Position numbers and translations under genes: made by a program | Notes under the pieces: generated by a model | What the model was told of the DNA's origin: nothing | Seen by the model: the letters and a program-made list of their open reading frames with translations, nothing else | The model's database searches: none | NCBI GenBank assembly: GCA_012523975.1 | Contig: JAAYSF010000081.1 | Span: forward strand, 1 to 42,990 | DNA: 42,990 nt | Reading direction: 5' to 3' | Origin: Veillonellaceae bacterium | Lineage (GTDB): Bacteria > Bacillota > Negativicutes > JAAYSF01 | In this document: positions 37,037 through 37,489 of the stretch, in pieces | How positions within the stretch are numbered: the first letter of the stretch is position 1 | How the letters are laid out: every line of letters starts with the position of its first letter

Positions 37037-37124
37037 CTTCAGAAATAGAATAGTCGTCTTTACAAAATGGGTTTGGGATTATCTTGTTTATGAACGTGTA
37101 GTACGGATAATAACCCGCCAGTGA
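37011..37124 (+). pseudogene. Displaced C-terminal tail of the NDH-2-like protein
   Basis: In the +1 frame relative to the upstream gene, TVHILRLIDFRNRIVVFTKW and then VWDYLVYERVVRIITRQ match the typical membrane-binding tail of type II NADH dehydrogenases. Restoring one base gives a protein of about 417 residues, the normal family length. It has no start of its own. A terminator follows directly. Confidence 0.8.
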
Positions 37125-37131
37125 GTTTAAA

Positions 37132-37169
37132 AAAGGCCGGATAGCACTTATGCAAGCTATCCGGCCTTT
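37132..37169 (+). terminator. Terminator after the NDH-2-like gene
   Basis: AAAGGCCGGATAGC pairs with GCTATCCGGCCTTT around a 10-base loop, eight bases after the tail's stop codon. Confidence 0.85.
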
Positions 37170-37174
37170 ATAAA

Positions 37175-37430
37175 AGTATTAAGGGGAAGGCGTTCCTTCC
37201 CCTTAGTTTAAACAACCATCCTTATAGCGCAGTTCCAAAGCTTAACAATCAGAAACAGCCTCTTTCACAACAAACTACTCGGACGCTAATACAAACCACT
37301 AACCACTAAAACGAACTTTACAAACAAAAAACACAACCCTTGTTTGACTCACGAACCTCTTGCATTACCCGGAAACACGTTCCACTTTGCAATACCGTTA
37401 ACCACTAAGTCGCTATAAGGATGGTGCCTA
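37175..37430 (-). ncRNA. Candidate structured RNA (rod-like, 6S-RNA-like shape)
   Basis: A perfect 15-bp inverted repeat ACCATCCTTATAGCG (37215-37229) / CGCTATAAGGATGGT (37411-37425) encloses about 181 bases. At the centre CAAACAA / TTGTTTG (37321-37327, 37340-37346) forms a terminal hairpin. On the minus strand a promoter-like TTGCGT -17- TACTAT lies to the right and a 10-bp hairpin AAGGGGAAGG / CCTTCCCCTT (37181-37204) followed by AATACTTTTA ends the element. The strand has no reading frame with a start and ribosome binding site. Length and rod shape resemble 6S RNA, but no sequence consensus was confirmed; a MITE-like element is the alternative. Confidence 0.5.
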
Positions 37431-37489
37431 GCTAAATAGTAACATACAAAATCAAATAACGCAATAGTCAAAATATTATATTTTTTAGG

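Follow-up and report, generated by a model that had tools for sequence, protein, structure and literature searches.

A conserved structured non-coding RNA beside topB in a Negativicutes genome, predicted to represent a family outside Rfam 15

Large conserved standalone RNAs are rare in bacteria, and several of those that are understood (6S, SRP, RNase P, tmRNA and ModT) proved to be broadly important for the cell. The described RNAs closest to the locus analysed here each share a part of its anatomy: 6S RNA (RF00013) its size range, terminal stem and standalone gene; the raiA motif RNA, or ModT (RF03072), its structured nature, independent transcription and lack of a fixed neighbour gene; the bacterial, Ro-associated Y RNA a terminal stem of conserved sequence that closes a variable interior; and the CsrB/RsmZ sponges an AAGGAUG-type sequence. 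ModT is abundant and acts in trans, and C. difficile does not sporulate normally without it (PMC11706538); it sets a precedent for such an RNA acting in trans on growth transition and sporulation (PMC11706538). The parallel is an analogy and not evidence of the function of the RNA described below.

The window, by which we mean the whole analysed stretch of 42,990 nt (contig JAAYSF010000081.1 of a Veillonellaceae bacterium), holds between the genes for topB and a FAD-dependent oxidoreductase a region that was originally predicted to encode a structured RNA on the minus strand. This prediction is now strongly supported by promoter, terminator, homologues and covarying helices. As judged from sequence comparison, positions 37172..37429 of the minus strand are almost certainly a real gene for a non-coding, structured RNA that is transcribed on its own and whose family lies outside Rfam 15. 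Its novelty is that of a new family within a known kind, the standalone structured RNAs of bacteria, and the status of new family seems secure. The features of the locus, in the order of transcription, are as follows.

37459..37464, minus strand: -35 element TTGCGT (family consensus TTGCAA); TTG at -36 to -34 in at least 95% of 66 loci
37436..37444, minus strand: extended -10 element TG-T-TACTAT (family consensus TG-N-TATTAT), with a fixed 17-nt spacer in 66 loci
37172..37429, minus strand: predicted ncRNA gene of about 255 nt with predicted ends; promoter-RNA-terminator unit kept in about 69 homologues
37429, minus strand: predicted 5' end of the ncRNA, at the foot of P1 and just upstream of the conserved AG/GG at 37428
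37411..37428, minus strand: 5' arm of P1, GGCACCATCCTTATAGCG (family consensus AGCACCAUCCUUAYAGN), near invariant, partner 37212-37229
37406..37411, minus strand: 5' strand of P2, GACUUA, partner UGAGUC; both-side changes in 6/6 pairs on A3
37387..37392, minus strand: 5' strand of P3, UUGCAA; both-side changes in 6/6 P3 pairs on A3
37380..37383, minus strand: 5' strand of P4, GGAA; 91% of cells paired, with GC/AU/GU alternation
37371..37374, minus strand: 3' strand of P4, UUCC, from P4 covariation
37360..37365, minus strand: 3' strand of P3, AUGCAA, from P3 covariation
37346..37351, minus strand: 3' strand of P2, UGAGUC, from covariation with GACUUA
37322..37339, minus strand: conserved G/U-rich tract GGGUUGUGUUUUUUGUUU, predicted to be single-stranded; GUGUUUU with little or no variation among 17 diverse homologues
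37230..37321, minus strand: C-poor loop of variable length, from composition and alignment
37259-37265, minus strand: purine-rich AAAGAGG inside the loop, from alignment
37212..37229, minus strand: 3' arm of P1, CGCUAUAAGGAUGGUUGU, with compensatory changes towards the 5' arm
37180..37205, minus strand: Rho-independent terminator hairpin of the ncRNA, from terminator scan and conserved in homologues
~37172, minus strand: predicted 3' end of the ncRNA, within the T-run past the terminator

The perfect 15-bp inverted repeat enclosing some 181 bases, on which the original prediction was centred, was confirmed at 37215-37229 / 37411-37425 with 181 nt between its arms. It is the only perfect 15-bp repeat with a loop of 60-220 nt in the window, and block-shuffled windows contained 0.01 such repeats each. 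The minus strand of a 271-nt region around it had a lower folding energy than 200 of 200 dinucleotide shuffles (z -3.5); since the plus strand also outperformed all 200 shuffles (z -4.7), folding energy alone cannot assign the strand, and the assignment to the minus strand is made because of promoter, terminator and homologues.

A minus-strand promoter TTGCGT-17-TACTAT had likewise been anticipated. It is present, with its -10 hexamer at 37436-37441, 17 nt from TTGCGT, and 66 homologous loci keep it with the same spacing, while a generic promoter consensus scan left it unflagged. Alignment of the 66 distinct upstream regions on the RNA start gave conservation of 96-98% for TG, 98% for TA and 96% for the final T of the -10 element, together with a conserved A at -1, so that the family layout reads TTGCAA-17-TG.TATTAT with fixed spacing. 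Judging by these motifs, the ncRNA has a dedicated promoter of sigma-A type with an extended -10 element. On the other side, the hairpin foreseen at 37181-37204 was detected by the terminator scan at 37180-37205, and the homologues keep it. It should be added that another strong hairpin is located at 37122-37175, between two convergent transcripts; it has T-runs on both strands and probably serves the FAD oxidoreductase gene as a bidirectional terminator.

When 60 related genomes were searched at the DNA level, other families in the class gave strong matches, of which the clear ones span the complete unit. A covariance model, R1, was built from a hand alignment of the 5' domain in 17 sequences. 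R1 matched in 47 of 380 Negativicutes genomes, which carry 1-4 copies apiece and represent 17 families. In a sample of 398 genomes taken across the phylum it matched in 6, including that of the window. Furthermore, scanning 84,980 species with a pattern yielded 62 stretches, which R1 rescoring separated by a clean gap: 51, the window's own included, scored at least 39 bits and the others below 26 bits. The true matches belong to Sporomusa, Pelosinus, Anaerospora, Lucifera, Propionispora, Pelotomaculum, other Desulfotomaculaceae/Peptococcaceae and unclassified Bacillota MAGs; the MAG of locus L066, labelled Actinobacteria, is probably misbinned. The ncRNA is thus conserved across dozens of bacteria, mostly spore-forming anaerobes, and culturable carriers include Sporomusa ovata and Pelosinus fermentans. 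Wherever the contig extends far enough, the full layout of promoter, P1, three further helices, G/U tract, C-poor loop and terminator is present. Four related viral contigs matched the pattern at the 5' arm only (18 bits), without promoter and P1 3' arm, and were taken as chance.

Compensatory changes in the closing stem, which the original prediction had named as a check in related genomes, were found. The 45 distinct pairs of P1 arms carry C-G 23 times, U-A 21 times and U-G once at the central variable pair, all of which can pair; over all 69 copies the counts are U-A 35, C-G 33 and U-G 1, and in L133-L135 the U-A pair is replaced by C-G. This test is independent of R1, which contains no P1 pairs, and the 3' arm was located by a downstream motif search blind to the 5' arm. 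The arm was undetected at a few loci, some of which end at a contig border, and in L075 it has a one-base insertion. The closing-stem core (CACCAUCC/GGAUGG) is near invariant; its AUCC/GGAU part hardly varies on either strand, which indicates strong sequence constraint and is uninformative on pairing there.

When the 69 matches were aligned to R1 (alignment A3), both-side changes were seen in 16/16 pairs of P2, P3 and P4, with 80% of cells paired, and the covariation score was 0.272 vs 0.139 shuffled, while with slid partners it did not exceed 0.083; as this alignment was fitted to the R1 structure, these figures lean towards it. A first MAFFT alignment had put P3 and P4 out of register, and RNAalifold found little inside P1 on that alignment, which is why the model rests on the hand alignment. 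The central 7-bp hairpin proposed at 37321-37346 does exist here, but the homologues have not kept it; what they conserve at this place is the U-rich strand itself, with the consensus GGGUWGUGUUUUUUGUUU. A pairing of the AAGGAGG/AAAGAGG motif with the 5' arm of P1, noticed by eye only, was rejected; it fails to track the P1 changes in L133-L135.

The stretch between the G/U tract and P1 measures about 82-290 nt across the homologues, contains 13% C and is, at a mean z of +0.41, slightly less well folded than shuffles of itself. Purine-rich AAAGAGG/AAGGAGG recur in it at differing distances, and in Pelotomaculum-type loops (e.g. L122, L070, L091) a perfect Shine-Dalgarno-like AAGGAGG is conserved without an ORF. 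A coding region or a small ORF led by such a motif was nevertheless rejected, in agreement with the initial impression that the minus strand lacks protein-coding features: in 69 homologues the longest ORF averaged 28.8 codons vs 32.5 in shuffled sequence. The loop of L005 (G001) contains about five tandem copies of a ~40-nt unit (TTAGTTAAGTCAGTAGTTTGTTTGCAAGTAGTGAGCG), pointing at tolerance of the loop to expansion, and L134 has a long loop rich in GTAAG.

The covariance-model search that had been suggested for 6S and other Rfam models was performed and returned no family. cmscan of the window with 4227 Rfam 15 families at gathering thresholds gave no match at the ncRNA locus, while RNase P, 5S rRNA and tRNAs were detected elsewhere in the window. 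A lax scan of the region produced only chance matches and matches to the neighbouring terminator hairpin (37130-37167); Rfam 15 scans of about 50 homologous loci had no match on the ncRNA itself, and lax searches of 13 homologous loci gave chance or unrelated matches only. Neither Rfam 15 nor the open-access literature searched yielded a description of the ncRNA. Of the 224 candidates of a 2017 survey, cmscan covered the motifs entered in Rfam; the ncRNA could be a motif of that survey which never entered Rfam.

The resemblance to 6S RNA (SsrS), which binds RNA polymerase as an open-promoter mimic and is a template for pRNA, had been put forward on account of size, closing stem and central hairpin; the own promoter and terminator fit it as well, and 6S is an RNA to be expected in Firmicutes. 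This identity did not hold up and is now very improbable: RF00013 has no match at the locus at gathering or lax thresholds, 6S is encoded twice on other contigs of this genome (G000:C21:33827-34001 and G000:C48:14754-14929; L002, L003) with 113 and 82 bits, both above the gathering score, and in one relative a 6S gene and the ncRNA adjoin as two separate genes (L009/L073). Moreover, 6S is a rod with a central bubble, whereas the interior of the ncRNA consists of P2-P4 and a variable open loop. Identity with raiA/ModT was rejected, too, as the locus has no raiA match or covariance-model similarity to it and raiA (RF03072, 202 bits) sits at a separate locus (L136, G000:C3:4972-5196); the genome of this one sporulating Negativicute thus carries 6S twice, raiA and the present ncRNA. 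A short non-autonomous, MITE-like mobile element, the other alternative raised at the outset, would account for the perfect 15-bp terminal repeats and for a gene context that varies between families, but it is hardly conceivable given a locus that is single-copy in its genome, copies that keep a strand-specific promoter and terminator, RNA-type compensatory changes in four helices of the homologues and no plasmid or phage match. As for a Y RNA-like partner of the Ro (TROVE) protein, the anatomy is alike, with a near-invariant stem joining the ends around a variable interior; however, TROVE was absent from 16/16 RNA-positive genomes tested, with a control genome positive, and this reading is highly unlikely, while another stem-binding protein is a possible partner.

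A sponge of the CsrB/RsmZ type, titrating CsrA, is suggested by the 3' arm of P1 (UAUAAGGAUGG), which we take to resemble a CsrA site, by AAGGAUG or AGGGAUG in nearly all copies and by CsrA being encoded in 44/47 RNA-positive genomes. Against it, the recurrent GGA motifs, one in P1 and the other in P4, are both paired, the former within a conserved duplex, and an array of GGA hairpin loops is absent; nor does the distribution clearly follow CsrA, which occurs in 228/380 genomes, 184 of them without the ncRNA, and has no match in 3 RNA-positive genomes, including the complete G053. We consider such a sponge improbable. A rather better, albeit still unlikely, candidate is an antisense-type sRNA, in which the conserved GUGUUUUUUGUUU tract would serve as seed for A-rich mRNA sites and P1 with the hairpin domain would provide stability or chaperone binding. 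Few unpaired parts are conserved as well as the tract, and the ncRNA is unlinked to any gene family; on the other hand, near-perfect complements of the U-tract in six genomes were few and none was notable beyond RNA genes and a control-level background, the sole one in the window's own genome being the ncRNA gene itself, which makes one long antisense target somewhat less likely.

We return to the reading of a new ncRNA family that acts in trans as an RNP scaffold or regulator, for which, taken as a whole, the chances appear evenly balanced. Action in trans is most likely, since promoter, stem core and tract stay constant whereas the loop and the adjacent genes vary. Regulation in cis is unlikely, because neighbour genes are common only within genera or close lineages and differ between families. 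The scaffold or trans-regulator mechanism itself is tentative, slightly short of an even chance. Its likeliest form is an RNP: a protein would recognise the near-invariant P1 core and the hairpin domain, the open loop, which includes the GUGUUUUUUG tract, might contact another RNA or an RNA chaperone, and the RNP may then affect a process linked to life as a sporulating anaerobe. It is conceivable, if on the doubtful side, that this is a previously undescribed, housekeeping-like RNA which the sporulating Negativicutes share with Desulfotomaculaceae and with further deep Bacillota lineages. It would assemble a dedicated RNP on its near-invariant stem core and be required at some step in the life of sporulating anaerobes, with an importance comparable to ModT or 6S.

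A link to sporulation is suggested, and not proven, by co-occurrence within Negativicutes: Spo0A was found in 42/47 RNA-positive and in 14/333 RNA-negative genomes, giving a Fisher odds ratio of 191 that is confounded by shared ancestry, as genomes are not independent. Spo0A and the ncRNA may both mark Sporomusa-like lineages simply by ancestry. Among the five RNA-positive genomes without Spo0A, four are incomplete assemblies and one (G023) is rated complete. Should the link be causal, the ncRNA would be a new RNA player in the sporulation of diderm Firmicutes. Strong conservation over several Bacillota lineages, culturable hosts and the missing catalogue entry make it in any case a concrete gene and RNA for study.

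Some copies adjoin genes of housekeeping RNAs. In several Desulfotomaculaceae-like genomes (L083, L075, L132, L091, L104) the ncRNA gene is followed downstream by a tRNA gene and that of the large SRP RNA, an arrangement that suggests an old shared location, and in L046 it lies beside RNase P-tRNA. Close-by duplicate ncRNA genes occur at L124 (4994 and 5425), L077/L103 and L080/L081, with diverged loops and conserved stem and promoter.
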